Below, one piece after another: positions 14,478 through 60,385 of a stretch of DNA of 64,000 nt. The first letter of the stretch is position 1, and each line of letters opens with the position of its first letter. The stretch comes from Saccharomycodes ludwigii. Taxonomy: Eukaryota; Ascomycota; Saccharomycetes; Saccharomycodales; Saccharomycodaceae. The notes beneath the pieces were generated by a model that saw only the letters and a list, made by a program, of their open reading frames with translations, did not search any database and was not told where the DNA came from. The stretch covers positions 806,001 to 870,000 of the forward strand of contig NC_060201.1 of the NCBI RefSeq assembly GCF_020623625.1, read 5' to 3'. The translations under genes and the position numbers were made by a program.

Positions 14478-14607
14478 GAAGCGGTGGCTCAATGGTAGAG
14501 CTTTCGACTCCAGTGTAATTAATTGGTTTCGGCCTTTAACAAATACCATTATTATGGCATTGAAAAGTGCAATCGAAGGGTTGCAGGTTCAATTCCTGTC
14601 CGTTTCA
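14478..14607 (+). tRNA. tRNA-Trp (anticodon CCA) with a 58 nt intron
   Basis: The exons are nearly identical to S. cerevisiae tRNA-Trp: exon 1 at 14478-14513 starts GAAGCGGTGGCTCAATGG, and exon 2 at 14572-14607 contains the B box GGTTCAATTCC and ends CGTTTCA, which closes the acceptor stem. The anticodon CCA is 14510-14512. The anticodon stem TTCGA/TCGAA is intact, and the mature tRNA would have 72 nt before CCA addition. The intron lies in the canonical place, one base after the anticodon, and is longer than the 34 nt intron of S. cerevisiae. It includes TGG at 14524-14526, which could pair with the anticodon. Position 37 reads G, whereas S. cerevisiae has A. No tRNA-Trp is present between SSS1 and RRP1 at YDR086C-YDR087C as I recall. 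Confidence 0.97.
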
Positions 14608-40577: not shown

Positions 40578-41042
40578 ATGTCTGCCTTACCAAAGAGAAT
40601 TATTAAAGAAACTGAAAGATTGGTTAGTGATCCTGTACCAGGAATCCAAGCAACACCAAATGAAGATAATTTACGTTACTTTCAGGTGAAAATGAGGGGG
40701 CCAATACAATCACCATATGAAAATGGTATTTTTAAATTGGAATTATTTTTACCAGACGAATATCCAATGGAACCACCAAAGGTACGTTTCTTAACCAAAA
40801 TTTATCACCCAAATATTGATAGGCTAGGTCGTATTTGTTTAGATGTTTTAAAAAATAACTGGAGTCCTGCATTGCAAATTAGAACAATATTATTGAGTAT
40901 TCAGGCTTTATTGGCTACGCCTAATCCTAATGATCCTTTAGCTAACGATGTTGCTGAAGAATGGATTAAAAATGAACCACAGGCTATTAAAACAGCAAAA
41001 GAATGGACTAAACTATATGCCATGAACGAAGTAATGGATTAA
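40578..41042 (+). CDS. UBC13: Ubiquitin-conjugating enzyme E2 Ubc13
   Basis: A 154-residue E2 that with Mms2 builds K63-linked ubiquitin chains in error-free post-replication repair. It has the E2 fold with [15 protein letters not shown], catalytic Cys87, and conserved [20 protein letters not shown] and [12 protein letters not shown] blocks. It is a single uninterrupted frame from an ATG, whereas S. cerevisiae UBC13 (YDR092W) has an intron in the 5' part of its coding region. It runs convergently to the regulator array, which separates it from DNF. Confidence 0.98.
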
Positions 41043-41228: not shown

Positions 41229-43727
41229 CTATGTAGAAGGCTTAAAATTTTCTAGGTCTTGGTTTAGTAAGTCAAAGAACTCATTTTCAGAGCAATTGAA
41301 ATATCTATAAATTTCATGATCCAAACCAGTGTCCAAAGAGGCCGCCTTTGATGATGTGTAATCGAAACTTAGATCTTGTCCATCTAATAAGGATGTTACG
41401 GCGCTGCCTGTATTTGGTGTGTCACTGTCGGCGCTACTGTTAGTATCAATATTGCCCACCACAGTAGTTTTATCTTTATCATTAGTTTTTTGTTCGTCAT
41501 TTACTTCCCCCGCGTCTTTTCTCGTCAAAATTTTAATTCTCCTTATGTTATTTGGTATGTCAATTGCATATCCAGTTAAAAGAGTGGGCTTGTTTCCAAT
41601 TACGGTCAATTCTTTATAACTATTGGCTAGGTATGACATTGTAACTTTTTCAAAAATCTTCTTATATATAAATTGCAAGTAAAACCTAGTCAATTGCTGT
41701 AAAGCTTCTGTTTCATACGGCCACCATTTTTCAAAATATTCACAAATAATATTGAAAATAGCCCTTGGTGATAAGGTTTTGAAATTCCTATTTTTATCAG
41801 TACTTCCTAATAAATCTACCTTAAAATTTTTTATTTCTTCTCTAACTTCCTCATCTGTGGGAATATTTGCACCGTTTTGCTTATTATATTCACATTTTTC
41901 ATTGAAGAAAAAGTAAAGATATGTTATCCCAATCGAACATAGCTTCGATATGCCAAAAGATAGAATTATATATGATTTGGATGAACAAAAGGACGGCCTT
42001 ATATAATCAAGCTGTTTTTCTCGTTTTAAACATATCGAGACTAAGCAAGGCCCAAGTTCATATAAAATTAAAGAAGACCTTATAATATCGTTTTCGACCT
42101 CATTTCCAGTGTTATTGTAAACAAGTTTTTCTAAACAAGAAAGTCCAGCATATTTTGCGACCAAATTCCCAACAAACAAATAATCAAAAATATCATAATT
42201 ATTGTTAATTTTAGCAACATGTTTCAAAGATAGTTCCGGATTCGAATAATAGTTCAACGGTTGAAAATACGTGTCTAAAAATTCACATATTCTCAATTTA
42301 TGCAATGCCAAAGATGGTTTGCCAGTTGGCTTGAAAAGATCGATTATTATTTCTCTGCTAATTATAATAAATTTTTTCATTATTAGTTCTTTTCTGTTCA
42401 TCTCATTGTCATGAATATTGATGCTTTTCAATAAGACATTATGATCATAAAGATCTCTAGAAATAAACAACGCTTTACCCACTTGGAAACTAACCATAAC
42501 ATCAAAATACAAAGCCCAATACCAAATCTGATCCAACACTTCGATCCCACCAATTCTATCAATTTCAGACTGATGGTATATCTTACGATAATTTCGATGT
42601 AGCCCCAAGGAAATGCAAGTGCTACACAAATTACCCACTAAATTTAGTAAATGGGAAAAATCACCTCCCGTAAAACCATGATACACTCTGAAAATAGTTC
42701 TAAATACTAATAACTGAGCCTTTTCTAATGTCAAGGACTTACTTGTGGAACAGCCGTCCAATAGAACAAATAACTTTAAAATTGCATCCGGTGCACCACT
42801 TGTATAATAAACAAGAGAAAATAAAATGATCAAAATCGCAACAGCATAATAGTTCCTTTTCCCCGGATGTATAAAGCCAGTAATTTTGTTTGTGCGGGGA
42901 TCATATTTTATCAATGTGCTCAACTGTTTTTTAATCACATTTTCGTTGGTAACAGGGAAATATTCGTGGTAAACTGTTCTGAAAAAAAATTCGACGCATG
43001 TTTTAAAAGTATTATAATCTGGCAAAAGTTCAATTATTTCCTCAAATACGGTCCCTTCTTGATTGTTATCCAGAATAACCAACTCTTTCAAAGTTGAATA
43101 ATTGGATCCTACTTTTTCATATTTTCTAATCTTTTTCAACTCTTTCAAGATTTTTACCAAAAAGGGGAAATTATTTTCCGAAGATAGCGATGAAAAACAT
43201 CTAATTGAAGTCGCCCCAAAATAAATTATTCTGTTATTTTTAAAAACCGCAGTCTCTAACTTTAATATAGGATTTTCCTCCTCAGCACTAGTATCATTTT
43301 TGTTATATTCGGGTTTTAACAGCGTGTTATTATTTTCATGTTTTTTATTACAATTGTGATCTTGATTTTTTGATTTGTCATCAATTTCGTCATTATTAGC
43401 TACAGCGGTGTTGCTTGTTCCCTCAGGACTACTATTGATGGTAACAATACCATTATTTTGCAACTTTCCCAAGGACTCGCCTGTAACATAGTTCACTATA
43501 TGATTTTCATGATTTACATATAAACATTCTGTCAAATTCCTTGAGATGCAAGAACTGCATTTTGGGATTTTTCTATCACATCTCAATTTCCTTTTCCTAC
43601 ATTCCAAACAGGATTTAATTTGTTTATTTCGTTTCCTTTTTTTCTCAGGGGGCTCCTGTTGTGTAAAGTTTTGTTCAGTTGGGAGGGAATAATTGTCCGT
43701 TGTTAGGTCATTACTATGGGTGTTCAT
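41229..43727 (-). CDS. Zn2Cys6 transcription factor, YRR1/YRM1/PDR8-like (array copy 1)
   Basis: An 832-residue nuclear regulator. A Zn2Cys6 cluster lies at about residues 40-68 (KSCLECRKRKLRCDRK, then KCSSCISRNLTEC; spacing C-x2-C-x6-C-x6-C-x2-C-x7-C), preceded by a basic stretch. A fungal middle homology region follows, with FGATSIR, KRNYYAVAILIILFSLVYY, GCSTSKSLTLEKAQLL, FTGGDFSHL and IGGIEVLDQIWYWALYFD. These blocks resemble S. cerevisiae Yrr1/Yrm1, regulators of drug-export genes, including their YGPTS and GASTAK words. The acidic C-terminus ends in YFNCSENEFFDLLNQDL, shared with both neighbours. It is intact. Target genes cannot be read from the sequence. It is not part of the ancestral UBC13-DNF order. 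Confidence 0.88.
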   Translation of the reverse strand: MNTHSNDLTTDNYSLPTEQNFTQQEPPEKKRKRNKQIKSCLECRKRKLRCDRKIPKCSSCISRNLTECLYVNHENHIVNYVTGESLGKLQNNGIVTINSSPEGTSNTAVANNDEIDDKSKNQDHNCNKKHENNNTLLKPEYNKNDTSAEEENPILKLETAVFKNNRIIYFGATSIRCFSSLSSENNFPFLVKILKELKKIRKYEKVGSNYSTLKELVILDNNQEGTVFEEIIELLPDYNTFKTCVEFFFRTVYHEYFPVTNENVIKKQLSTLIKYDPRTNKITGFIHPGKRNYYAVAILIILFSLVYYTSGAPDAILKLFVLLDGCSTSKSLTLEKAQLLVFRTIFRVYHGFTGGDFSHLLNLVGNLCSTCISLGLHRNYRKIYHQSEIDRIGGIEVLDQIWYWALYFDVMVSFQVGKALFISRDLYDHNVLLKSINIHDNEMNRKELIMKKFIIISREIIIDLFKPTGKPSLALHKLRICEFLDTYFQPLNYYSNPELSLKHVAKINNNYDIFDYLFVGNLVAKYAGLSCLEKLVYNNTGNEVENDIIRSSLILYELGPCLVSICLKREKQLDYIRPSFCSSKSYIILSFGISKLCSIGITYLYFFFNEKCEYNKQNGANIPTDEEVREEIKNFKVDLLGSTDKNRNFKTLSPRAIFNIICEYFEKWWPYETEALQQLTRFYLQFIYKKIFEKVTMSYLANSYKELTVIGNKPTLLTGYAIDIPNNIRRIKILTRKDAGEVNDEQKTNDKDKTTVVGNIDTNSSADSDTPNTGSAVTSLLDGQDLSFDYTSSKAASLDTGLDHEIYRYFNCSENEFFDLLNQDLENFKPST

Positions 43728-44093
43728 GATTCAAAAGTTTAAAATCTTTCTCTTTTTTATGGAAAGGAAGAGGGTGTGTTTTTCGATGTGTGGCGTATGA
43801 AAAATCATAGACGAATTTATCTTTCGATAATAGTAATTTATCAGGGACAAAAAAAAAATATATATATAAATATAAATATAAATATAAATATATATGGGTT
43901 TTTTTTTGTTAGTAAATTAGAAATAATAAATTATATTGTTAAAATGTGTAGTACAAGTCACGTGCAAAACCTTTTTTTTTTTTTTTTTGTCCTTTTTAAT
44001 AAACCGAAATGCCCGCTATCCGCCGCCTTTTCGCTAACATTTTACAAGTTTTAAGATTTTCATAAACATTAAAATGGCCATATAATCCTTAGG
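43728..44093. promoter_or_regulatory. Upstream region of array copy 1, with E-box
   Basis: A 366 bp gap. GTCACGTG at 43957-43964 is an exact Cbf1-type E-box, about 235 bp upstream of the ATG at 43727. A 17 bp T run follows. The short GC patch CCGCTATCCGCCGCC near 44012-44026 stands out in this AT-rich DNA and contains CCG half-sites of the kind zinc cluster proteins bind. Confidence 0.4.
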
Positions 44094-46400
44094 TTACTCC
44101 GGAAGTATGCCTTTTAGATCGCTGTTTAATAAATCAAAAAATTCAGTTTCAGAACAGTTGAAATATTGATAGAATTGTTCATCAAATACAGTGTCATTAG
44201 AAATATGTGAGAACGGCAATGTTGGCGATACTTTATTATCATTAGTGTCTACAATTGTTTGACCCGCTTCTTCAGAATATCCAGCTCCATCACTTAAAAT
44301 GTTAATTTTTTTATCATTTTTAGCTATATTAAAAGCAAATGTGGTTAAACTGTTATTATGATTGTTTAGTAACGTTAAATATCTATAATTTGTTACCAAA
44401 AAAGTTACAACGATTTTCTCCAAAATAATTTGATACGTAAAGTGTATATGCATGGTAGTTAATTGTTGTAAAGTACTGATCTCATATTTCAATAACTTTT
44501 CAGAAGCGGAGCAAAACAAATTGAATATGGTTCTCGTCGACAATTCTTTTGTTGTTTTACACGTTATTGTAGCAAGCTCAAAACTATCAATTTCTTGTTG
44601 TACATGCAAATCAGTAACATTTGCCATTTTGTATGAATCCAATCTATCATGCTCACATCTCCTAAGTAAATGGAAAAGGAGAAGTTTTGACCTCATACCC
44701 GCAATACTTTTCAAACCCTCACCCAAAACTATATTTGATTTAGCCTCACATACAACAGGTTTGATATGATTTTGTTCGTATTTTAAACACATATTAATAA
44801 AACATGCGCTTATACCAATCAATATTAAAGAACACCTGACAATATCATTTTCGATTTGCACCGATTTGTTATCGAAAACATAGCACTGAAAATAAGCAAA
44901 GGTTAAAAATTTATCAAGCACAGGCACAATTAACAAATAGTCAAATGGTTCAACAATATTGCATTTAACCTCATCCATATAATTAGATAGTTTCAAAAAA
45001 TTCTCGTCCAAAAAATCACTTATCTTCAACATATGCTGTGACAAATTAGGCATTCCTTTTGGTTTTAACACATCAATTAAAATACTTCTGCATAATAAAA
45101 TGTATTTCTTTAAAAGTATGGTGTTTCTTGAACACTCTTCGTTTTTCAATAGTAGTTCATCATCGCACATTTTATCACCGACTATTAAGCCCTTTCCAGT
45201 TTCAAAACTAATTAAGATGTCATAATATAGAGTTCAGTACCAGATATTATTAACAATTTCAATCCCACCAATTTTATCTAGAGTTTCTTGTGGGTAAAAC
45301 TTTGTATAATTCCTATAAAGTCCCAAGGACATGGAAGTCTTGCATAAACTAGCAACCGATATTTCAAGATGAGTGAGATCGCCACCTGTAAAACCATTAT
45401 ACAATCTATAGGTGACTTCTAATAATAAAAACTGGGCCCTCTCAAATGTTAAAGACTTAGTTGTGGAACAACCTTCCAAGTAAACAAACCACTTAAATAA
45501 AATATCGGGAATATCTGTAGAATAATGGGTAATGGAAAATAAAGACAAAAGTATGGCGGCTGGATAATAGTTTCTTCTATCAGGATGATTAAATCCCAAA
45601 ATTTTATTTTTTTCTTTGTCTGTAATTAATACAGCGTCCAAATATTGCAAAACAACTTTTTTATGCAAAATAGGAAAGAATTTATAATATAATGTATCGA
45701 AATAGTATTCAACACATGTTCTAAAAGTATTAAAGTCAGGTAAAATTTCCACAATCTCCTGGAAAACTGTGCCATGCCGATCAGCATCAAGTGAAAGTAA
45801 TTCTTTCATCATTGTAAAATTTGTTTTTGACTTTTCGCTTTTCCTAAATCTCTTAAACTCCTTCACAACTTTAAAGAAAGGTGGGAAGGTAGTAAAACAC
45901 ATATTAGTTAAAATGCTTCTTACCGAAGTCGGTCCATAATACATGACCCTGGTTTTTTTGGCACTAATGCATTCCAATATATACAACGGATTCTTGTGAT
46001 TGCTGTCCATTATAGTTGTCGTATCGGGAAAAGAATTTCCAATGCTTTTTGTACATAATGTGTCTGGATTAGGTTCCTCTTGTTTATTTTGTTTTTTATT
46101 AAAGTTACTAGAAGACAAATAGGAATTTGATCCACTAGTAGTATTGTTAAAGGAAGCTGTTGTATTCACTGATTGCTGTGGTATTAAATCCTCTTTTATT
46201 TGAACGATAGAATGATTGGATACAGATTTATTCTTATCTAGATATAAACACTCAGTCAAGTTTCTAGAAATACATGAACTACACTTGGGTTTTTTTCTAT
46301 CACATTTCAATTTCTTTGTCCTACAATATAAACACGACTTAATCAGTTTTCTTCTCTTTTTTTTGATAGATGAAGACTGATTTTTGTTATTTGATATCAT
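44094..46400 (-). pseudogene. Zn2Cys6 transcription factor, array copy 2, interrupted by one in-frame stop
   Basis: A 769-codon frame from the ATG at 46400 to 44094, colinear with copies 1 and 3. It has the zinc cluster (KSCLYCRTKKLKCDRKKPKC), YYGPTSVRS, RRNYYPAAILLSLFS, GCSTTKSLTFERAQ, FTGGDLTHL and IGGIEIVNNIWY, then the stop. A single TGA (45234-45236) stands where the paralogues have Trp (IWYW). The same frame then continues with YDILISFETGKG to the shared tail YFNCSETEFFDLLNSDL. The first part alone would be a 388-residue protein with the DNA-binding domain but no activation tail, which could act as a repressor if stable. No other break is seen, so the lesion looks recent. A polymorphism or base-call error is possible. 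TGA serves as an ordinary stop elsewhere in the window only if other genes use it, and nothing suggests recoding. Confidence 0.75.
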
Positions 46401-47122
46401 TTATGTGTGTATTCTTATGATAATTTTTAAATAAGAAACCTGATGTCACAATTTATCATATTTTCTTTTCTTTTTTTTTCTTCTTCTTCTTTGGATTAAA
46501 AAACTTGCTGTTAGGGTTTAATATAATTCACAATAAATCTTTTAACAAATTGAATTGCAGTATAACATTATAAGAAGTACCAAAATAACAAAAAAATAAA
46601 AAAAAAAAAAAAAAAAAAAAAAATGAGAAAGGAAAAGTGAATTAAAGGATACGATGTACGTTGATTTACCTAAAATTATACCCGGTTATATGTGATGTAT
46701 AGATGTCTAAATTACTACATTGATCCAAGTACGAAAAAAAGAAGAAAAAAAAAAAAAAAATAAAAAAAAAAGTCAGTAAGATCATATTTTACTGAATTCA
46801 AAACAAGACCACTTATCAATTAGACTTTATTTTATTTTATTTTACTTTAAACTTCAAACTTCTTCAAATCCAATAGTATAATTGCATCGATATTTTTAAA
46901 CAAAATAGGTTTGTTGTCTTTCTTTTCTCTACAACGTTTGGCCTTTCATTTAATCACCTCAATTTTCCATTCTTATAATAGACAATTTTAAAGTTAAAGG
47001 AAATCTATAAAGGAAAACCTCCCCCACCTTCTTCTTTTCAGCATTCACAAATAAATCAAACGATTAAAAGGTAATATAGGGCAAAAATACAAATGTGTAA
47101 CACGTACCCACTCTTCCCTGTT
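46401..47122. other. Intergenic between array copies 2 and 3
   Basis: A 722 bp gap holding the copy 2 promoter and copy 3 3' flank. A-run of about 29 near 46595-46623, and a second near 46743-46772. No gene and no duplicated remnant of the flanking genes was recognised. Confidence 0.7.
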
Positions 47123-49549
47123 TCATGTTGGAACAATATTTTCCAAGTCATCATTCAATAACTGAAAAAATTCAGTTTCGCTACAATGGAAATATTTGTA
47201 AATTTCATTGTCCAATAGTCGGCTTTGATTGTAATTATTTCTATTGATAATGCTTGTGCCAGTGATAAGCGCATTGTAATTCACGTCTCTACTTTTAATA
47301 ACATCATTATTTTTAATAGTATATTGTTTGTCAACGTTTACATTATAATCAGACAACATACATGGTGTAGGACTTGTTGCACTCTGTCCTGAATTATTGG
47401 GATCGGATTTTTTCTTAATAACAAAAGATTTATCGTTAAAAGCTGTGGAATCATCATTATGACCCGTTTTAACGGCGGAATGGTTGCTTCGAATGACAGT
47501 TTCATGTTCGTCATCAAACATCCTCATTCTATAAATAGGATTTAGTTCTGGATAATAATTGCTGAAAAAGGTTCTAGTCATTTTCTCAAAAGCCTTGTGC
47601 ATGATAAAATGCAGATAGTATTTCGATAGTTGTTGACAAACTTCAGTTTGAAGAATTCTATTTTTTTCGATCAAATAATACATTATACTAAATATGGTTC
47701 TCGAGGATATCGGCATGGACTTATATTTATCGTCTTTTAAACGATCCAATTTAAATGTTGATAATTCCTCTTCCACTACTTTATCATCAATAAAAGTAAT
47801 ATTGTTCAATTTGTTTTGCTCACATTTTTCACTTAATATGACAAACAGTAACGTGACTCTAATGTATAACAGGGAATCTATACTTAATCCGTACAATAAA
47901 TACAATTTATTTTTAGCAGCAAGTGGCCTGTACAATTTTTCAATATTTTCCTGTACAACACATATGTTTATTAGACATTTACTCAATAACATACCTATAA
48001 TAGAGGCCCTAAGAATATCATTTTCTACTTCTAACGAATTGTTATGTAAACAAACCCTATCCAAAAATGCCAAAGTTATATATTTCTTCACCAGATGATT
48101 CAACAATAAATAATCAAATAGGTCTATCTTTAAGGAATATCTTTCATCAATATAGTTAACTAAAAGCTGAAAGTTATTTTGTATGAAATGCCATATTTTT
48201 AGTGTATGTCCTGCTAAATCTGGAATACCCGTGGGTTTTAACACATCTGTCATAATCGATCTGCATAGATGAATAAATTTTTTCAAAAGGACAAATCTCG
48301 GTTTGTTGCCATGTGTTTGTGATGAAAGTAACAAATCTTCATTAAAATATGTATTAATTGAAATTAATAAGGGTTTACCAATTTCAAAACTGGTAATAGC
48401 ATCGAAATATAAACACCAATACCAAATATTTTCCACAATCGCAATCCCACCAATTTTTTCCAATATTTTGGTGGAGTAAATTTTAGAAAAATCTCTATGG
48501 AAACCCAAAGCAATACAGGTGTTACATAAATTACCGACCGAAAGCTCCATATGGCTGAAATCACCGCCAGTCATTCCATTAAAAAATCTATAAATCAACT
48601 TGAGTAGTAAAAATTGAGTTTTTTCAATGGACAAAGACTTACTTGTAGAACTACCTTCTAGCAGAATAAAAAAGTGAATGATTGGCAATGGAACACCACT
48701 ATCATAATATACAAAGGAAAATAGTAATAGCAGAATGCCAATGGGGTAATAGTTCATTTTATCCATATACTTTAAATCCACAATCTTTCCTTTGTCCTTG
48801 TCGATCTCAACATATTTTGAAATGTAGCTCATGACAATATTTTTATCTAATATTTGGAAGTAGTTTTGTAGGATAGTTTTGAAGGAAAACTTGATATTTT
48901 CTATAAATGTGAATGAATCTGGTAATATTTTAACAATGGTGGAAATAATTGTGTTTAAACTACGATTTCTTATTATATATTCATCGTACTCGTAGGGGGC
49001 ATTAATAGAACTTAGTTCTGTTAAATTGGTAAAATTCGAACATATTTTTTCTTTTTTTCTAAATCTTTTAAATTCTTTAAACATTTTAACCAAATAAGGT
49101 ATGCTGTTGTTATTCTGTTTTTGGATGAAGATACATCTGATGGAGGTTGGACCAAAGTAAATGATTCTATTTTGCTTATTAACGCCAAACTCGGCACGTA
49201 ATAAGGGATTCTCAGGTATCGGATCGGTAGTTGTCAAATTTGGTGCACTTTTTTGGTGATTTTTGTTATTAGGGACTAGTGTGGTGACATTGCTGGGATT
49301 ATGATTGCTGCAATTATGTTGTATTTTCCCACTTTGATCTGAGATAATTAAATCTGAATAATTAATTATTTCGCCGTGAGCATTTAAATATAAACATTCA
49401 CTTATATTTCTTGAACTACATGAACTGCACATGGGTAATTTTCGGTCACATTTCAATTTTCTTTTTCTACAATATAGACATGATTTAATTAATTTTTTCT
49501 TTTTAACTTTCTGTTGGGTTTCACATGATTGTTGTTCCTGATCTTTCAT
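47123..49549 (-). CDS. Zn2Cys6 transcription factor, YRR1/YRM1/PDR8-like (array copy 3)
   Basis: An 808-residue paralogue of the two genes downstream of it. The zinc cluster lies at about residues 22-52 (KSCLYCRKRKLKCDRK, MCSSCSSRNISEC). The middle homology region contains YFGPTSIRC, MNYYPIGILLLLFSFVYY, GSSTSKSLSIEKTQFLL, MTGGDFSHM and IGGIAIVENIWYWCLYFD. The C-terminus is YFHCSETEFFQLLNDDL followed by ENIVPT. Compared with copy 1 there is an extra loop near residue 190. No disruption was seen. Head-to-tail order with the other copies indicates tandem duplication. Divergence between copies is large outside the motifs, so the duplications are not recent. Confidence 0.88.
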   Translation of the reverse strand: MKDQEQQSCETQQKVKKKKLIKSCLYCRKRKLKCDRKLPMCSSCSSRNISECLYLNAHGEIINYSDLIISDQSGKIQHNCSNHNPSNVTTLVPNNKNHQKSAPNLTTTDPIPENPLLRAEFGVNKQNRIIYFGPTSIRCIFIQKQNNNSIPYLVKMFKEFKRFRKKEKICSNFTNLTELSSINAPYEYDEYIIRNRSLNTIISTIVKILPDSFTFIENIKFSFKTILQNYFQILDKNIVMSYISKYVEIDKDKGKIVDLKYMDKMNYYPIGILLLLFSFVYYDSGVPLPIIHFFILLEGSSTSKSLSIEKTQFLLLKLIYRFFNGMTGGDFSHMELSVGNLCNTCIALGFHRDFSKIYSTKILEKIGGIAIVENIWYWCLYFDAITSFEIGKPLLISINTYFNEDLLLSSQTHGNKPRFVLLKKFIHLCRSIMTDVLKPTGIPDLAGHTLKIWHFIQNNFQLLVNYIDERYSLKIDLFDYLLLNHLVKKYITLAFLDRVCLHNNSLEVENDILRASIIGMLLSKCLINICVVQENIEKLYRPLAAKNKLYLLYGLSIDSLLYIRVTLLFVILSEKCEQNKLNNITFIDDKVVEEELSTFKLDRLKDDKYKSMPISSRTIFSIMYYLIEKNRILQTEVCQQLSKYYLHFIMHKAFEKMTRTFFSNYYPELNPIYRMRMFDDEHETVIRSNHSAVKTGHNDDSTAFNDKSFVIKKKSDPNNSGQSATSPTPCMLSDYNVNVDKQYTIKNNDVIKSRDVNYNALITGTSIINRNNYNQSRLLDNEIYKYFHCSETEFFQLLNDDLENIVPT

Positions 49550-50480
49550 TATTATTGGTATTATAAGTTTTAATTAAATAGATTAACAGCCCCTTTGGTA
49601 CGACTTATTTTGTTACGAAGAATTAAGGATATGGTAGTAGTAGTAGCAGGGAGTGGAGAAGGAAGAAAGAAAGAAAGAAAGAAAGGAACTAACAGTTTGA
49701 AAAAAGGAAAAGGCTTGAATTTCTTATTATTAGGTTGTCTATTACGTAGGAAATAATGCGGGAATAGCCAAAGCCGACTTTAAAAGCCCTTGTTAATTTT
49801 GCCAATGTTTTTTTTTATTTTTTTTTAAAAAAAAACGTGATCTCTTTGTTTTTTAACTTGTTTTTTAACTTGTTAACAACGCCGCAGACCTTATTTATAT
49901 TTACTACACCCACACACCAAGCACAGCTCTACGGGGTAAATCAGACAACAAAAGAACAACAACACTTTTTAAATAACAAAACTTTTGTCACGAGCTGATG
50001 TGCGGTAAGATCTGAAGTTGTGAGATATTTGCGTTAAAACATTCAAATATTTTAAAAGAAAAAAGAAAAAAGAAAAAAGAAAAAAATCAGCAGCAAAAAA
50101 AAACATTCAACTCTTTTTTGGTATTAAATAAAATGAAAAGTGTTACATTCGTCTTACATATTATTACCATTTTTCTATACATACTATTATCGGTATTCAC
50201 ATAATAACATCTCCTATTTATCATATATATATATATATATATTACTTTTTTAGACTTGCAATTTACATAACACTTTCATATTTCATTTGTCATACTTTCC
50301 TTTCTTCCACTTTGCTCACTCAATTCCTTTTCCCCTTTTTTTGGAAAAGAGGAAAACTGAATAACAAAATAAATAAATAAATAAATAAAAAAAAACCATA
50401 TTTATAATAAAATTACAAGAAAACTCCTAAACAATAAATACCTTTGTTGATTCAGATTATTAGGTATACATAATATAATT
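49550..50480. promoter_or_regulatory. Divergent promoter region, array copy 3/DNF
   Basis: A 931 bp gap. It contains GAAA tetramers at about 49665-49686, a short repeat of TTGTTTTTTAAC near 49848-49875, AAAAAAG units near 50059-50088 and a TA repeat near 50222-50241. No specific factor site was convincing. Confidence 0.5.
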
Positions 50481-53400
50481 ATGTCCACTGGTAATTACAA
50501 CAACGACGATTGGCAACCCCCAAACGATAAAAAGGGCCAAAGTACAACTCATGATCCGCTCAATGACGATCCAGCATTGTCTAATATCTCTTTAACAACG
50601 GAAAATGATGGTAATATGTCACGTCTACAACAACATCCAATACCCCCTTATACTGGGGATACAACTGTAGTTTCCAATAACCCCTTTGACGATAAACTTC
50701 CCGATCCAATTGACAACAACAAGAACAAAAAAAGTGATAATGGAGCAGAGGTAACTGCAGAAACATTATCAGATGATGAAGACACCTATACTTCGACACA
50801 CAAAACACCTGTCTTATCTCAGCATGCTAGGTTTCCAGATGCCACAAATAGTCATGGGAATGATAGTGTCCAAGATGACACAGGCATGAGAAGGCTTCGT
50901 TGGGGTACTCAAAGGTTTGGAAATGGTAAACCCAAAGTTGGTAGAGCCAAAACTTTAAAGTGGGCCAAACAGAATTTTCAGAAAAACATAGCAAATCCAT
51001 TTGTTGAAGAGTTTTTGGGCCACGACGATTCAGATCTAACTGGCGAGAGCAAAAATAGAAGCAATGAAACCAGAAACATTTATTACAATATGGAATTACC
51101 TCCAGAAATGCTAAATGATGAGGGGAAACCCAAAATTGATTATCCTCGAAATAAAATCAGAACCACCAAATACACTCCTATCACATTTATTCCCAAGAAC
51201 CTATCGTTTCAATTTAAAAACATTGCAAACGTTTATTTTCTTGTTATGAATATCTTGGGTGCATTTCCCATTTTTGGTGTCACTAATCCGGGTTTAGCTT
51301 CTGTTCCTCTTATTGTTATTGTTTGTATCACTGCTATTAAGGATGCCATAGAAGATTCTAGACGGACAATTTTGGATTTAGAGGTTAATAACACACCAAC
51401 CCATATTTTAAATGGTATTGAGAACTATAATGTTAGTGAAGATAATGTTTCGCTTTGGAGAAAATTCAAAAAAGCTAATTCTAGATTATTATTTAGTGCT
51501 TTTAGATATTGCAAATCACATTTGAGCAAAAGCGGCAGGGCTAAATTGTTGAGAGAGCGCCATAAACAAGAGTTACATGCTTTGAATGACAATTTTAACA
51601 TTCCTCGTAATTCCTTTGACTCCATGGCCAGTTTTAGGGATTCTGCACAATATGATGAAGACGATGACCAATACCAACAAAACTATGCTCAGCGTGATCA
51701 AAACATTATAGATCCGCATATGCCAATGCGAACGGATTGTAAATTTGCTAAAAATTACTGGAAAAACGTCAAAGTGGGCGACATTATTCGTATTCACATG
51801 AATGACGAAATTCCTGCGGACATTGTATTATTATCCACTTCTGATCCAGATGGAGGCTGTTATGTTGAAACCAAAAATTTGGATGGTGAGACAAATTTGA
51901 AAATCCGTCAAGCTTTGAAATGTTCTTCACGGATTAGGAATTCAAGGGATATCACTAGGACATCTTTTTGGATTGAAAGCGAAGGCCCACATCCAAACTT
52001 GTATTCTTACCAGGGAAACTTGAAATGGATGGAAAGAGACCAATACGGTGCAGCTGACCCCCTTACCAAAAACGAACCTATTTCCATTAATAACACTTTA
52101 TTGCGTGGATGCACTTTAAGAAACACCAAGTGGGCCATGGGTATTGTCATCTTTACTGGTGACGATACTAAGATTATGTTAAACGCAGGTGCTACACCAA
52201 CAAAAAAATCGCGTATCTCTCGTGAATTGAACTGGAGTGTTATTTTAAACTTTTTTTTATTGTTTATCTTGTGTTTTGTCAGTGGTATTGTTAATGGTGT
52301 GTATTACAGACGCAAGAATGATTCTAGAACCTACTTTGAATTTGGTACTGTTGTTAAGACACCGGCTGCAAACGGTGTTGTCAGTTTCTTTGTTGCGGTG
52401 ATTTTGTATCAGTCATTAGTTCCTATTTCGTTGTATATTTCCGTGGAAATTATTAAGACAGCTCAAGCGGCGTTCATTTACGGCGATGTTTTGATGTATA
52501 ACGAGAAGTTGGATTATCCATGCACTCCTAAGTCTTGGAATATTAGTGATGATGTTGGTCAGGTAGAATACATTTTCAGTGACAAGACAGGTACTCTAAC
52601 CCAAAACGTTATGGAATTTAAGAAATGTACGATTAACGGTGTTAGTTATGGCCGAGCCTACACGGAGGCCTTGGCGGGTTTGCGTAAACGACAAGGTATT
52701 GATGTCGAAAGGGAAGGCATGGTTGAACGTAAGGCCATTGCTGAGGATAAGCAATCTATGTTGGAAACTTTAGAAACTAAGCTAGGTAAAAACTCTCAGT
52801 TTTTTGCAGAGGATGTTACATTGATATCTAAGAAATTTGTGGAAGATTTGCTAGGGGCATCTGGCGACTACCAAAAAAATTGTAATGAACACTTTATGTT
52901 GACTCTGGCTCTATGTCATACTGTGTTAACTGAGCCATCTAAGGAAAATCCGGCTAAATTAGAATTGAAGGCGCAAAGTCCAGATGAGGCTGCTTTAGTT
53001 GGTACTGCAAGGGATATGGGGTTCAGCTTTTTGAACAGAACCAAACACGGTGTTATTGTTGAAGTTCTAGGTGTTCAAAAAGAGTTTGAAATCTTGAATG
53101 TTTTAGAATTTAACTCTACAAGGAAAAGAATGAGTTGCATTGTTAAATTGCCTCCGAGAGAGTTGGGTGGTGATCCACGAGCTCTATTAATCTGCAAAGG
53201 TGCTGATTCCGTCATTTATTCCAGGCTAAGCAAAACTGCCAATGACGAAACCTTGTTAGAAAAGACTGCCTTGCATTTGGAACAGTTTGCCACTGAAGGG
53301 TTAAGAACGTTGTGTTTGGCACAGCGTGAACTTCCATGGAACCAGTATTTGGAATGGAACAAGAAACATGATTTGGCAGCTGCTAGTTTGAAGAATAGGG

Positions 53401-55325
53401 AAGAGGAGATGGAAAAAGTTGCAGATGAAGTTGAACAGGATCTAATTTTATTGGGTGGTACTGCCATCGAGGATCGTTTGCAAGATGGTGTTCCTGAATC
53501 TATTGCGTTGTTAAGTGAAGCCGGTGTTAAGCTATGGGTTTTGACTGGTGATAAAGTGGAAACTGCGATTAATATTGGGTTTTCATGTAATTTATTGGGT
53601 AATAACATGGAACTATTGGTAGTTAAATGTAGTGGTGATGATGTTGACGAGACACAAAATCCATCGGTTTTAGTTAATGATTTAATTGAGAAATATTTAA
53701 GTGAAAAATTTGGTATGCGTGGGAGTGAGGAAGAATTAGAAAGAGCTAAGAAGGAACATAGTGTTCCTACTGGTGAATTTGGTGTTATTATTGATGGACA
53801 AGCTTTAAAACTGGCATTAATTGGACCTGATATTAGCAGAAAATTTTTGTTGTTGTGTAAGAATTGTAAGGCTGTTTTGTGTTGTAGAGTTTCGCCTGCT
53901 CAAAAGGCTGCTGTTGTTAAGCTAGTTAAAAATAGTTTAGATGTTATGACGTTAGCTATTGGCGATGGTTCCAACGATGTTGCTATGATCCAATCTGCCG
54001 ACGTTGGCGTTGGTATTGCTGGGGAAGAAGGTAGACAGGCTGTAATGAGCAGTGACTATGCGATTGGTCAATTTAGATATTTAACCAGATTAGTGTTAGT
54101 TCATGGCAGGTGGTCCTATAAGAGATTGTCTGAAATGATTCCTTGTTTTTTCTACAAAAATGTTATTTTCACCTTAGCATTATTTTGGTATGGTATTTAT
54201 GATAATTTTGATGGTTCGTATTTGTTTGAATACACATATTTGACGTTTTACAATTTGGCATTTACATCCTTGCCCATTATCTTTCTAGGTATCTTGGACC
54301 AAGATGTTTCTGATGTAGTTTCTGTTTTGGTTCCCCAGTTGTTTAGATGTGGTATATTAAGAAGTGAATGGACAATTTCGAAATTTTGGGGCTACATGTT
54401 GGATGGGGTGTATCAGAGTATTATTTGTTTTTTTTTCCCATACCTTTTGTATTATAGAACCGGGTTTGTTAGTGGCAATGGGTTGGATTTGCAGCAACGT
54501 TATTGGGTTGGTATTGCGGTTACTGCGATTTCAGTTATTAGCTGTAATTCGTATATTTTTTTACATCAATATAGATGGGATTGGTTTACCTTTTTCTGGG
54601 TTTGCATTTCCATTTTGTTTTTTATTGGTTGGACTGGTATTTGGACCTCTTTTGTTAAAAGTGGTGAGTTTTACAAGAGTGGTAAACATTTTTTTGGATC
54701 ACCTGTTTTTTGGGCTGTTTTATTTGTCGGGGTCTTATTCTGTTTATTACCAAGAATGACTTATGATGTTTTCCAAAAGATGTTTTGGCCCAAGGACATT
54801 GATATTATTAGAGAATGCTGGAAAAGGGGGGAATTTGATCAATACCCTGTTGGATATGATCCAACTGATCCTAACAGGCATCATATTTCTAGTTATTCCA
54901 TGAAGCAAATTGCTGACATTGAATCTGAACATGGCAATTTTGATCATGATTTCAGTGAGCATATTGATGCAACAAGTATTAGTAATATAGCCAATCCATT
55001 TGAACCTGCAATTCCCGAAGATGGTAAAGAAAGAAAGCATACTATGAGTGCTGCGGGTGATGAGGTTGAGGAAATCCCACTAGATTTTGTTGGTAATTAT
55101 CATAATGGGAATGAAAGCAACGATAAACAATATACTACTATGACGCGTGACTATCATAATCCGAGAAAGAGCTTAGGCAACGCGAATCGGACTTCCTTAG
55201 ATATTACAAGGGAAAACATGATGAGGAATAATGAATTAGATCAAAGAATGTCCATTGAAAGGGCTAGAACTTCTTTAGAGTTGCCAGGTATAACAAGGGC
55301 TGATGATTTATTAAGCAAAAAATGA
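50481..55325 (+). CDS. DNF1: P4-ATPase phospholipid flippase (Dnf1/Dnf2 type)
   Basis: A 1614-residue aminophospholipid/lysophospholipid flippase, expected at the plasma membrane and endosomes with the Lem3 subunit. The P-type core is complete: DGETNLKIR in the actuator domain, phosphorylation site DKTGTLTQN (Asp about 701), KGADSVIYSRL in the nucleotide domain and GDGSNDVAMIQSADVGVG. About ten membrane helices are present. The N-terminal tail has NPFDD at residues 67-71, which fits the NPFxD endocytosis signal known in Dnf1, and the C-tail has NPFEP. The C-terminus also has repeated Arg/Ser kinase-type sites (RKSLGN, RTSLDI, RTSLEL), consistent with Fpk1/Ypk1-like phosphorylation. It is the single pre-duplication counterpart of DNF1 (YER166W) and DNF2 (YDR093W), so the symbol could be either. 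Confidence 0.96.
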   Translation: MSTGNYNNDDWQPPNDKKGQSTTHDPLNDDPALSNISLTTENDGNMSRLQQHPIPPYTGDTTVVSNNPFDDKLPDPIDNNKNKKSDNGAEVTAETLSDDEDTYTSTHKTPVLSQHARFPDATNSHGNDSVQDDTGMRRLRWGTQRFGNGKPKVGRAKTLKWAKQNFQKNIANPFVEEFLGHDDSDLTGESKNRSNETRNIYYNMELPPEMLNDEGKPKIDYPRNKIRTTKYTPITFIPKNLSFQFKNIANVYFLVMNILGAFPIFGVTNPGLASVPLIVIVCITAIKDAIEDSRRTILDLEVNNTPTHILNGIENYNVSEDNVSLWRKFKKANSRLLFSAFRYCKSHLSKSGRAKLLRERHKQELHALNDNFNIPRNSFDSMASFRDSAQYDEDDDQYQQNYAQRDQNIIDPHMPMRTDCKFAKNYWKNVKVGDIIRIHMNDEIPADIVLLSTSDPDGGCYVETKNLDGETNLKIRQALKCSSRIRNSRDITRTSFWIESEGPHPNLYSYQGNLKWMERDQYGAADPLTKNEPISINNTLLRGCTLRNTKWAMGIVIFTGDDTKIMLNAGATPTKKSRISRELNWSVILNFFLLFILCFVSGIVNGVYYRRKNDSRTYFEFGTVVKTPAANGVVSFFVAVILYQSLVPISLYISVEIIKTAQAAFIYGDVLMYNEKLDYPCTPKSWNISDDVGQVEYIFSDKTGTLTQNVMEFKKCTINGVSYGRAYTEALAGLRKRQGIDVEREGMVERKAIAEDKQSMLETLETKLGKNSQFFAEDVTLISKKFVEDLLGASGDYQKNCNEHFMLTLALCHTVLTEPSKENPAKLELKAQSPDEAALVGTARDMGFSFLNRTKHGVIVEVLGVQKEFEILNVLEFNSTRKRMSCIVKLPPRELGGDPRALLICKGADSVIYSRLSKTANDETLLEKTALHLEQFATEGLRTLCLAQRELPWNQYLEWNKKHDLAAASLKNREEEMEKVADEVEQDLILLGGTAIEDRLQDGVPESIALLSEAGVKLWVLTGDKVETAINIGFSCNLLGNNMELLVVKCSGDDVDETQNPSVLVNDLIEKYLSEKFGMRGSEEELERAKKEHSVPTGEFGVIIDGQALKLALIGPDISRKFLLLCKNCKAVLCCRVSPAQKAAVVKLVKNSLDVMTLAIGDGSNDVAMIQSADVGVGIAGEEGRQAVMSSDYAIGQFRYLTRLVLVHGRWSYKRLSEMIPCFFYKNVIFTLALFWYGIYDNFDGSYLFEYTYLTFYNLAFTSLPIIFLGILDQDVSDVVSVLVPQLFRCGILRSEWTISKFWGYMLDGVYQSIICFFFPYLLYYRTGFVSGNGLDLQQRYWVGIAVTAISVISCNSYIFLHQYRWDWFTFFWVCISILFFIGWTGIWTSFVKSGEFYKSGKHFFGSPVFWAVLFVGVLFCLLPRMTYDVFQKMFWPKDIDIIRECWKRGEFDQYPVGYDPTDPNRHHISSYSMKQIADIESEHGNFDHDFSEHIDATSISNIANPFEPAIPEDGKERKHTMSAAGDEVEEIPLDFVGNYHNGNESNDKQYTTMTRDYHNPRKSLGNANRTSLDITRENMMRNNELDQRMSIERARTSLELPGITRADDLLSKK

Positions 55326-56560: not shown

Positions 56561-59500
56561 ATGAAGTCCAGTAATAAGGACGGCCGTGATGTTGATACGA
56601 ACGTAACTGGCATAAAGGAAATCTCAAACTGTACTTCGTCTTTTCCCTCCACTAGAAATAGTAAATCAAATACGGCTTCTCCGGTTTCTTCAAAATGGAG
56701 GATCCCACACTATTATAAAAGACAACAGCATCAACGATCCACTTTTTCCAAGAAAAAGACTGATAATTACGAGGATACAAGCACTTCTTTACAGAGTACT
56801 AAAGATGTTGGTATTAAAGGTAATTTAGTTGCCAACGAAATGCAAATACCAAACAATTTATCACCGAATAAGAAGAACACCTCAATAGAGGATTCCACTT
56901 TGAAAAATCGTGTGAATATTATGCAATCTCCTACAAGAATACAATTGGGTGATAACACATGTACACCATCTTCCGAGTGGTCACCTAGAGGTAGGAGATC
57001 TAAGGGTAAAAATAAACCTATGATTTTTGTAAATTATTCTGTGAAAGACGCTGATCAAGCATCACCACCAAAAATTATAACTCCTGTTTCTACGGCATCA
57101 CCTTCCTTTGTTACCTCTTCCTCAAGTACACTCAATCTTTTACCAAAAAATAAAAAGTTTACCACGAGTAATAAAACTGCTAGTTCTGAAAATATTACTG
57201 ACACTAGTAGTACAAATGGCCATAAGAGAATGCTAAAATTATTTAGATCAAAATCTGCCATTATAAACCGCAACAGATCTTCTTCCAACAACGTTTCTTC
57301 AACTTCTTCTTTCAATGGTAATATTTCAAGTCCACTTTCATTGTCATTCACTAACAATAACGATGCTTCCATTGAGATGAATCATGCAGCTGCTACTTTA
57401 GAGGATGTTAGTGAGCTAATTAGCCTATGCAATACTAAGAGTTTACATTCATCTTCTAATACTGCTGAGAGTAATAGCGATAGTAATATACATGAGTCGA
57501 GTATTTTGCCAACTAAAAGACCACGTTCTAGGAAAAATGCTGTAGCGACTACAACACAGGCAGCTACCGCTAATTCTAAGAATAGTAATCCTATATTTGT
57601 AGATAATACTCAAAATGCTGCGTCTTTACGGAAACCAAAATTGAAAAGGTCTAAGAGTACCACCATTGCTACAACTAATACAAACCATAATAAAATAAAT
57701 ACGAAGAAAGAACAGAATGAAGATGAAAATGATGCTTCGATTGCATTTAACAAGATGCTGATTTTTCCTAGAAAAAGAACAAATACATGCGGGTCTATGA
57801 ATTCGAATTTTTCAGTCAGTAACAATGGGGGTACTGATATCAACGTGAATAATAATAGTTCTATTGCAGCTGCTACTACAGGTGTGTATCCATCCACAAA
57901 AAAAAATATTGTCCGAAATTTATCTACAAATTCAATAGCATCACTGAGGTTTTCTCCTGTGAGAAAAAGTTCGCCTCAAAGAGCAAGGTCTAGCAGTAAC
58001 GTTACGTCTAGCAGCTCAATAGCATATAGTAGCGGCAGTGCTACCAGTAGTACTACGGCAACCTCAAACAGTGGCAATAATACACCCATTAATTCATTGA
58101 ACAATAATGATTATGTTGGGATATTAAATAAAGGAAATTGTATTAGTATACTTCCTAATGCATACAGTGGTAATGGCGGATACAGTACTAATTCCGCACA
58201 TAGACTTTCATTTAACACAAAGGGTGTTAATGCTTATAGCAATAATATCAATACTAATAACAATCCTTTGTTAAAAACCAACGTCATTAATTACAACGAC
58301 AACAAAAACAACAGCAACAATAACAACAACAATAATAATAACAACAACAACAACAATAATAATAATAGTAATGATAACAATAACAAAACAAATAATTGTA
58401 TAAACGCCCCTAACATTAATGCCACCACCAGTGTTTGTTCATCTTCCACGCCATCCTCTTCGAATTATTATTCATTAACGCCTGGCAATTCCAATAATAA
58501 TTTAAATATAATAAATACTAACGGTAGTAATAGCAGTATTTCATCATCTGTATCCACCAGAGCTAATTCTGTTACCTATTATAATACGAATAACTCTGGC
58601 GCTTTCCCCGTTTCTACGGATAATACTACAGGGAATAGTAGTACAACCATTGATTTTACTGCAAACACATATATACCTCCCAATATACAAGAACAGGGAC
58701 AGCTATCTTCTGGACAGTTGCAAAACAATTTTTGTCATCAAACTTTCCATTCTAATGCTACCAGTAGCTCTACTTACCTGGACACTGGTGGTAGGTCAAT
58801 TTATCAACATAACTATACTAGTTGCAGTGATGCTGGTAATCATAATAATACAGTTAGTTTGAACAACACCGACAATAACCTTGAAAGTAAAAAATATGAC
58901 GATTATTTGATGGGTAACGACAGTAGCTTGGTGACAAATAGTAGCGATGATAATAATAATAATAATAATAATGTTAATTTAACTATAGATACAAATATTG
59001 CTAATTTGTATACATCAGCTGGATTATCTTCAACACCCGTTATAAGCACAGCATCAACTTTACGTCCTATGAATAGTGCTATTTCTGCAGGATCCTTCAA
59101 GGAGTTTGATACCAGCAATACTAGTGCTAGTAGCGCCAACTTGTACAGACATAGTTCTATTTCGACTGCATTGAATGGTGTTTTGAACAGCGATGATAAT
59201 TATAATAACATTATTGGCGTAAACGCAGATGTTGGTAGTAATGATGGCAGCGGTAGTAATGTTGTAAGTTCTAAAAAAAGCAGCAAGATGAATGGTATAA
59301 GCGTGGTGTCTGAGTTTGAGGATTATGGTTTAGACACTGGAAACATAGCAGCAAAATCACCATTTAATGTTGATAATAATGTTGATAGACTTAACATTAA
59401 TATGAAAGAACGCAACAATACTGACAACAAACGCAGCAATGTCATAAATAATACAGCCTCTTATTTTGAAAAACAACAACCATGTTACAATAATATTGGT

Positions 59501-60385
59501 CAATCTAACACCATAAATAATATGGATTTGACTGGTAAAAATAGCATTAATCACACTAATAATTATACTGTGGTTTCAAGTACAATGGACGATTATCATA
59601 ATGAATCTCATAGTTGTGATAAAAATAGCGGTAGTATTATAAGAGAGTCCTGCGCCAATAAAACTATGAATGAAATTGATAGAGGTTTTGTTGGTTTGAA
59701 TAAAGGAAGCCTTGATAATCACGGTGGTGGTCGCACAATGACTGGTGATACGATTGATTATGCGAACTTTGTTATGAATGAGAAAACAAGAGACTCCAAT
59801 TATGAAAAGGGGACTAATGAGGGTGTGGCTGATACTATATCGGCATTTAATGATAAGAGTGTGATAATAAATACTGGGATAGGTTCTAAAGCTATAAACC
59901 TAAGCAGATATATTTCAGAACAAAACAATTTTAGAAAGGCTAGTTCCGACTTGTTAGTAGTAAGGGATTCTCTTACAACTACACCTGTAATGAAGAATAT
60001 GGGTATGAATTCATCGCCTACTACTGTTAAATTGGATACTAATATTTATTATAACCAAACGCATCTTAACAATTATGACAATTGTAGCTTTATTAATTCT
60101 GAGTGCCTTAATAACAGCGATATAACGCTAAATGCTACTAACGTTGGATCACACCTTACTACTACTATTACTACTAATAATAATAATAATAGTAATAATA
60201 ATGATCAAACTAGTGATAGTAACGAAATTTTTGGGTTTCCTACTGCGCAAACATTCGACGAACATATGAATTTATTAATGAATGCAATTAATGGAACAGA
60301 TGGATCAACCACCACGAACTATTACGAAGACAATTCAACTAATGGACTTAATAATAGCGGCGATGATGAAAACTACATGCAATAA
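56561..60385 (+). CDS. BCK2: Bck2-like G1/S transcriptional activator, Asn/Ser-rich
   Basis: A 1274-residue low-complexity protein, longer than S. cerevisiae Bck2 (851). Bck2 activates G1 cyclin and other early cell-cycle genes in parallel with Cln3 and can work through Mcm1. Sequence support is limited: an N-terminal SSKWRIPHYYKR block, the basic RMLKLFRSKSAIINR, and scattered Ser/Arg motifs. The main argument is position, since DNF1-BCK2-CCA1-RPH1 is the order of YER166W-YER169W with matching strands. Poly-Asn runs (one of about 17 at around residue 590) and Ser/Thr/Asn repeats fill the rest. No enzymatic domain or membrane segment was seen. An alternative is an unrelated Asn-rich regulator in the same place. 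Confidence 0.75.
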   Translation: MKSSNKDGRDVDTNVTGIKEISNCTSSFPSTRNSKSNTASPVSSKWRIPHYYKRQQHQRSTFSKKKTDNYEDTSTSLQSTKDVGIKGNLVANEMQIPNNLSPNKKNTSIEDSTLKNRVNIMQSPTRIQLGDNTCTPSSEWSPRGRRSKGKNKPMIFVNYSVKDADQASPPKIITPVSTASPSFVTSSSSTLNLLPKNKKFTTSNKTASSENITDTSSTNGHKRMLKLFRSKSAIINRNRSSSNNVSSTSSFNGNISSPLSLSFTNNNDASIEMNHAAATLEDVSELISLCNTKSLHSSSNTAESNSDSNIHESSILPTKRPRSRKNAVATTTQAATANSKNSNPIFVDNTQNAASLRKPKLKRSKSTTIATTNTNHNKINTKKEQNEDENDASIAFNKMLIFPRKRTNTCGSMNSNFSVSNNGGTDINVNNNSSIAAATTGVYPSTKKNIVRNLSTNSIASLRFSPVRKSSPQRARSSSNVTSSSSIAYSSGSATSSTTATSNSGNNTPINSLNNNDYVGILNKGNCISILPNAYSGNGGYSTNSAHRLSFNTKGVNAYSNNINTNNNPLLKTNVINYNDNKNNSNNNNNNNNNNNNNNNNNSNDNNNKTNNCINAPNINATTSVCSSSTPSSSNYYSLTPGNSNNNLNIINTNGSNSSISSSVSTRANSVTYYNTNNSGAFPVSTDNTTGNSSTTIDFTANTYIPPNIQEQGQLSSGQLQNNFCHQTFHSNATSSSTYLDTGGRSIYQHNYTSCSDAGNHNNTVSLNNTDNNLESKKYDDYLMGNDSSLVTNSSDDNNNNNNNVNLTIDTNIANLYTSAGLSSTPVISTASTLRPMNSAISAGSFKEFDTSNTSASSANLYRHSSISTALNGVLNSDDNYNNIIGVNADVGSNDGSGSNVVSSKKSSKMNGISVVSEFEDYGLDTGNIAAKSPFNVDNNVDRLNINMKERNNTDNKRSNVINNTASYFEKQQPCYNNIGQSNTINNMDLTGKNSINHTNNYTVVSSTMDDYHNESHSCDKNSGSIIRESCANKTMNEIDRGFVGLNKGSLDNHGGGRTMTGDTIDYANFVMNEKTRDSNYEKGTNEGVADTISAFNDKSVIINTGIGSKAINLSRYISEQNNFRKASSDLLVVRDSLTTTPVMKNMGMNSSPTTVKLDTNIYYNQTHLNNYDNCSFINSECLNNSDITLNATNVGSHLTTTITTNNNNNSNNNDQTSDSNEIFGFPTAQTFDEHMNLLMNAINGTDGSTTTNYYEDNSTNGLNNSGDDENYMQ

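Follow-up and report, generated by a model that had tools for sequence, protein, structure and literature searches.

Three genes for Zn2Cys6 (zinc cluster) regulators stand side by side in the yeast Saccharomycodes ludwigii, with a gene of UBC13 type on one side and a lipid flippase gene of DNF type on the other, and the locus raises the question of whether they are copies of one gene, how long they have been kept, and to which known regulators they correspond. We analysed a window of 64,000 bases (G000:C2:806001-870000) from a genome assembly of 12,500,424 bases in 8 contigs. The S. ludwigii NBRC 1722 assembly, from a haploid strain, is reported to have 12.5 Mb in 7 chromosomal scaffolds with 30.9% GC (PMC8567612). 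The three genes were found head to tail on the minus strand at positions 41229-49549 of the window. Copy A (41229-43727, 832 residues) and copy C (47123-49549, 808 residues) are intact by their open reading frames (ORFs) and Pfam domains, and copy B (44094-46400) is interrupted. The original prediction of a head-to-tail array of three related genes, one of them broken, was thus confirmed by the ORFs, Pfam and the genome search. We consider it likely that the array arose through old tandem duplications of a single zinc cluster gene, that it was placed at this site, between UBC13 and DNF, within the Saccharomycodes lineage, and that purifying selection has long preserved it.

A search of the whole genome with copy A gave 17 matches. 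Copies B (E 1.1e-167) and C (E 1.4e-154) matched near full length, and such values over almost the whole length indicate that the likeness within the array is not due to chance. Two relatives elsewhere in the genome were also recovered: D (C6:621461-623947; two matches, E 5.5e-85 and 5.8e-15) and E (C2:2192749-2195049; E 3e-75). Members A to E matched copy A across most of its length, and 11 others matched near the DNA-binding domain at less than 30 bits. The Pfam search for Zn_clus gave at least 60 matches in the genome, 59 of them over the cut-off (counts for such large families are lower bounds). From the genome and Pfam searches, 32 distinct zinc cluster proteins were taken, four of which were A, the first piece of B, D and E. 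The motif Y[FYL]G[PAS]TS was present in all five family members (in B, in the first piece) and in none of the 28 zinc cluster rows outside the family, of which 27 reach at least 400 residues beyond the domain; a looser GPTS occurred in one non-family row (L014). In BLAST comparisons among the rows, the five members were linked at E 2e-17 or better, and in the stretches of sequence compared, no match at E 1e-8 longer than 100 residues tied any other row to them. Trees of the two protein halves placed A, B and C as one group against D and E with support of 93/97 and 95/96, the former being slightly under the tree tool's own star. E had a long branch in both half-trees, and D in the second-half tree too. 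On these sequence comparisons, A, B and C are one family and branch together. The alternative that the three copies come from different families was not borne out within this genome by either the genome search or the half-trees. Outside it, a scan of viral contigs with copy A gave no pattern match, and a scan of prokaryote contigs with copy C gave 6 pattern matches, none of which was confirmed.

The age of the duplications was examined from codon positions. Local protein identity was 43.1% for A-C, 45.7% and 38.8% for A with the first and second pieces of B, 34.4% for A-D and 31.7% for A-E. Fourfold degenerate sites were compared at residues identical between copies, in nine pair comparisons. 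Within the array, agreement at fourfold third positions was near chance in all five comparisons: 13/46 for A-C (expected 0.28), 12/36 for A-B (expected 0.26) and 7/31 for B-C (expected 0.28) over the first piece, and 6/19 for A-B (expected 0.34) and 4/16 for B-C (expected 0.30) over the second. First and second codon positions were far over chance in 9/9 comparisons, with agreement at position 2 of 0.61-0.71 against 0.28-0.30 expected. Synonymous sites near chance together with first and second positions far above it indicate that the duplications are old and that the proteins have been kept by selection. The long maintenance that had been proposed from protein divergence is therefore upheld by saturated fourfold sites and constrained first and second positions. 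Recent gene conversion among the array copies was rejected, since the highest third-position identity in any 40-codon window between them was 0.65.

Protein features were similar across the family at the N-terminal end. Zn_clus scored 33.2 bits in copy A (residues 39-70), 35.4 in the first piece of copy B, 32.9 in copy C (residues 23-55), 33.0 in D and 34.1 in E, all over the Pfam cut-off of 21. A search of the PDB with copy A gave 4 sequences, which matched at the zinc cluster only. At the other end, an acidic-hydrophobic C-terminal tail was recognised in the alignment and as a repeat (family D6) at 41250-41333 in copy A (minus strand), with counterparts at 44112-44195 in B and 47141-47224 in C. 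Identity over the final 29 aligned residues was 18/29, 20/29 and 18/29 in the three array pairs, and in the linker preceding the tail it was 34/96, 35/119 and 17/91 in the same pairs. The tail is thus conserved above the linker in all three pairs, which fits a putative activation domain. In D and E, only a vague counterpart of the tail was seen by eye in the alignment.

Several results weigh against old duplication of one gene, followed by long conservation in this lineage, or weaken parts of it. Fourfold agreement between A and D was above chance (15/32, expected 0.27); in the remaining three non-array pairs it was not. The tree of the DNA-binding domain alone (32 rows, with L023 dropped as too short and copy C added) grouped the five members in 7% of 200 bootstrap trees, and a long-branch row, L009, fell among them. 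The middle homology region (Fungal_trans, PF04082) passed the Pfam cut-off of 23 in copy A only, with 24.3 bits at residues 326-433; copy C reached 21.4 bits, and the domain was not listed for either piece of copy B (E 0.01) or for D and E (E 0.001). The structure prediction, made from four rows of the window, had low confidence (mean pLDDT 46.5). Up to E 10 the fold search with it returned 303 matches, of which none reached 0.001, and the fold therefore gives no confirmation of the middle homology region. The lineage specificity depends on an ancestral order that we take to be that of YER161C-YER169W and YDR083W-YDR093W in Saccharomyces cerevisiae.

Copy B consists of a first piece at 45234-46400 (an ORF of 388 residues) and a second piece at 44094-45233 (holding an ORF of 358 residues at 44094-45170), which share one frame. 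By the ORF list and the genome search, the single interruption is an in-frame TGA at 45234-45236 on the minus strand; the genome search read the gene as one stretch with 1 internal TGA and the remaining frame open. A Pfam search with the second piece gave no match. In the alignment, the first piece was 45.3% identical to A and 43.5% to C (A-C, 45.4%), and the second piece 36.3% and 33.5% (A-C, 39.3%). The branch of B in the second-half tree (0.98) lay between those of A (0.71) and C (1.27). The second piece is open over 379 codons. As 5.7% of single changes create a stop, more than about 4.7% neutral divergence since the TGA arose is unlikely with 379 codons open, a limit that assumes neutral decay and counts substitutions only. 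These open codons suggest a young stop, within the range of divergence within the species; a cross in S. ludwigii showed a divergence of 1.59% overall, rising to 3.3% in its more divergent parts (PMC8567612). The stop looks recent, and with it the full-length coding capacity of copy B appears to have been lost, at least in this strain.

Other accounts of the stop were weighed. That it is a sequencing error, or an allele limited to some strains, is a possibility we hold to be real but the lesser one. A single stop in a frame that is otherwise open agrees with it, and about 18,000 to 308,000 single-nucleotide polymorphisms separate strains of the species from the reference (PMC8567612). The assembly is that of a haploid strain, and Illumina reads were used to polish it (PMC8567612); this counts against an error but not against an allele, and the stop may be one. 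It is unlikely that copy B functions in its interrupted form, as a DNA-binding product of 388 residues without an activating tail that competes with A and C for sites. In keeping with such a role, A and C resemble the first piece as closely as they resemble each other. Competition between paralogues has a precedent in Yrr1 and Yrm1, where it is reportedly the subject of a study by Lucau-Danila in 2003. However, the 379 open codons of the second piece point to a recent loss rather than to a settled short form. Readthrough of the stop was set aside, as the context of the TGA is not known to be of the leaky kind.

The array is flanked on the left by a gene for a ubiquitin-conjugating enzyme at 40578-41042 (plus strand, PF00179), which we take to be UBC13 from the gene order, and on the right by the DNF-type flippase gene (a P4-ATPase of 1614 residues; 50481-55325, plus strand; Pfam and genome search). 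In the neighbouring genes, Pfam found the domains expected of RAD4, a PQ-loop protein, GCG1, RLI1, CHD1, PAB1, the flippase and CCA1, and an RPH1-type JmjN protein. The ORF at 56561-60385 gave no match in the Pfam search and is presumably BCK2. The repeats displayed around the array were the copies themselves and simple A/T-rich tracts. No mobile-element insertion was seen among the repeats and RNA genes, which were looked at in place of a dedicated mobile-element search. The sole tRNA gene detected in the window lies 26 kb from the array. It was matched at 14478-14607 (plus strand; 130 bases, with room for an intron; Rfam, 53.8 bits) and was missed by a tRNA scan in bacterial mode. Elsewhere in the window, an ORF of 664 residues at 4215-6209 (plus strand) carries SDL tripeptides, repeated in a run, near its C-terminal end.

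We then asked how exceptional the arrangement is. S. ludwigii has 5031 ORFs (PMC8567612), and about 0.008 triples would be expected by chance from 59 zinc cluster genes among them. Together with the homology of the copies, this shows the array to be a product of duplication. At three other places in the genome, two zinc cluster domains stand at a distance of about 4 kb from each other (C1:2389049/2393201, C2:668139/672247 and C7:259830/263688); these are pairs, and the array is a triple. The C7 pair (G000:C7:259830-263798) is homologous, with 42% identity over 97 residues around the domain and tree support of 98/98, but beyond the domain, in the parts read, it showed only short matches, unlike the array copies. 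The family also appears to have been placed in the genome more than once. D lies between ORC3- and ILV3-type genes, and E between an EF-hand (CDC31-type) gene and the gene for uL24m. PAP1 was ruled out as the neighbour of D because that neighbour carries ORC3 domains. S. cerevisiae is not known to have a zinc cluster gene at the places of D and E. About 15 kb from D, a fragment of a Ty1/copia-like retrotransposon RNase H was seen by eye (L049:98-511, plus strand).

Adjoining zinc cluster genes are also found in Candida albicans, in which ZNC1 and TAC1 are part of three neighbouring genes. ZNC1 lies directly upstream of TAC1 on chromosome 5 (PMC11288014), and Znc1, Tac1 and Hal9 were close in a phylome analysis (PMC5072224). 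The species and the place differ from ours, and we liken the two by arrangement, not by sequence. With three other zinc cluster pairs in this genome and the ZNC1-TAC1 pair (PMC11288014), the array is less unusual than was claimed in the original prediction. We found no paper on Saccharomycodes zinc cluster or Zn2Cys6 genes in the open literature, subscription papers and supplements aside, and the genome paper on S. ludwigii UTAD17 (PMC7903802) does not use the terms PDR8, YRR1 and 'drug resistance' in its main text.

The three genes had been labelled as YRR1/YRM1/PDR8-type, and the label is plausible. That the array is a moved and expanded set of orthologues of these genes, driving drug pump genes through Yrr1-type elements, is a serious candidate to which we give slightly less than even weight. 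The architecture of Pfam domains agrees with it, and the YRR1/YRM1/PDR8 proteins are similar in length to the array copies. In S. cerevisiae these genes have DCS1/2, LCB4/5 and GET4 as neighbours. The array does not lie beside LCB4/5, DCS1/2 or GET4, but position is no strict requirement, and the genes may be homologous all the same. DcpS, GET4 and DAGK_cat (LCB4/5) each gave one match in the genome, clustered at C1:2,114,743-2,150,456; among the at least 60 Zn_clus matches listed, none fell between these genes and the nearest was at C1:2081106. The presumed YRR1/YRM1/PDR8 site is thus apparently empty here, as expected after a move. The evidence from binding elements was divided. The Yrr1 element is (T/A)CCG(C/T)(G/T)(G/T)(A/T)(A/T) (PMC8837787), and within about 1.2 kb upstream of five PDR/CDR-type ABC transporter genes, four such elements were found at three of the genes (2+1+1). 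Two of these, a TCCGTGTAW pair 41 bases apart upstream of a PDR/CDR-type ABC gene (G000:C5:1383100-1384900, L054), are the closest-spaced among 73 matches genome-wide. Judged by 47 background promoters, 1.28 elements would be expected (Poisson P 0.04). However, 120/1000 shuffles also reached four, and genome-wide the 9-base core TCCGTGTAW, at 73 occurrences, was rarer than its reversed control (106), so the pump genes show at best a weak excess. Yrr1 is autoregulated (PMC3997011), yet its element had 0 matches in the three intergenic spaces of the array, where a diverged element would escape the search. One Yrr1-type match lies within 1200 bases of copy C and, at -1053, falls in the reading frame of the flippase gene; family member E has one at -906. 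A genome search for an SNG1-type gene (PF12051) found none, which also weighs against the label. Compared with YRR1/YRM1/PDR8 of S. cerevisiae, therefore, the array is at a different place and its intergenic spaces have no Yrr1 element, in a genome in which no SNG1-type gene was found.

Upstream of copy A, at 44004-44025, four CCG/CGG triplets are arranged as direct repeats within 22 bases, with spacings of 6, 4 and 0. The window has no other cluster of this kind outside its reading frames, and 32/1000 shuffles reached the clustering seen here. The upstream region of copy A (43728-44093) also contains a CACGTG, with flanks that we take to be Cbf1-site-like. The drug response element of C. albicans has a core, CGGATATCGG (PMC10370356), with which the core of the triplet cluster agrees in 9 of 10 bases. 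The sequence CGGATANCGG occurred 15 times genome-wide against 12 for its reversed control, and 0 times in the five ABC promoters examined. The cluster is a weak candidate for a zinc cluster binding element.

A further proposal is that the array and the flippase gene form one co-regulated module for lipid and drug stress, with the space between copy C and DNF as a two-way promoter. The two genes are transcribed divergently from one common space of 931 bases (49550-50480). The Znc1 of the C. albicans pair controls resistance to miltefosine (PMC11288014), a lipid-like drug whose uptake needs Lem3, the partner of the flippase Dnf1 (PMC8837787). Against this, the 931-base space holds no Yrr1- or Pdr1-type element, and its 6 CGG/CCG triplets are at chance level (482/1000 shuffles had as many). 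D and E adjoin unrelated genes, and divergent neighbours are common in yeasts. We found no evidence in the sequence for such a module, with nothing beyond the common space to tie the array to the flippase, and we regard the proposal as improbable. A genome search with the DNF gene gave itself and weaker matches, which were broken into pieces with identities of 30 to 48% and reached 487 bits at best; the genome thus seems to have no second gene of this type.

Taken together, the array is a real, old and probably lineage-specific expansion of a known kind, and it looks like ordinary growth of a gene family and not like a new system. With their N-terminal Zn2Cys6 domain, the products of copies A and C would bind promoter elements that contain CGG, the long middle region of the intact products may be switched by a ligand or a partner, and the conserved acidic-hydrophobic tail at the C-terminal end would activate transcription. 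Copy B appears to have dropped out recently as a full-length member, at least in this strain. The likeliest role of the array would be in the response to xenobiotic or membrane stress. Much more can be imagined, namely a long-kept triple module specific to Saccharomycodes, in which two activators and a recently truncated, tailless copy share targets and copy C controls DNF from the common promoter for membrane remodelling under stress in a yeast tolerant of SO2, but we consider this highly improbable. As old tandem duplications of one zinc cluster gene, with saturated synonymous sites, the three copies are an old example of yeast regulators that multiply in place and persist. If the family belongs to the Yrr1 group, the case would suggest that this lineage lost the ancestral site and re-established the genes at another place, which would bear on how a yeast that spoils wine tolerates stress.
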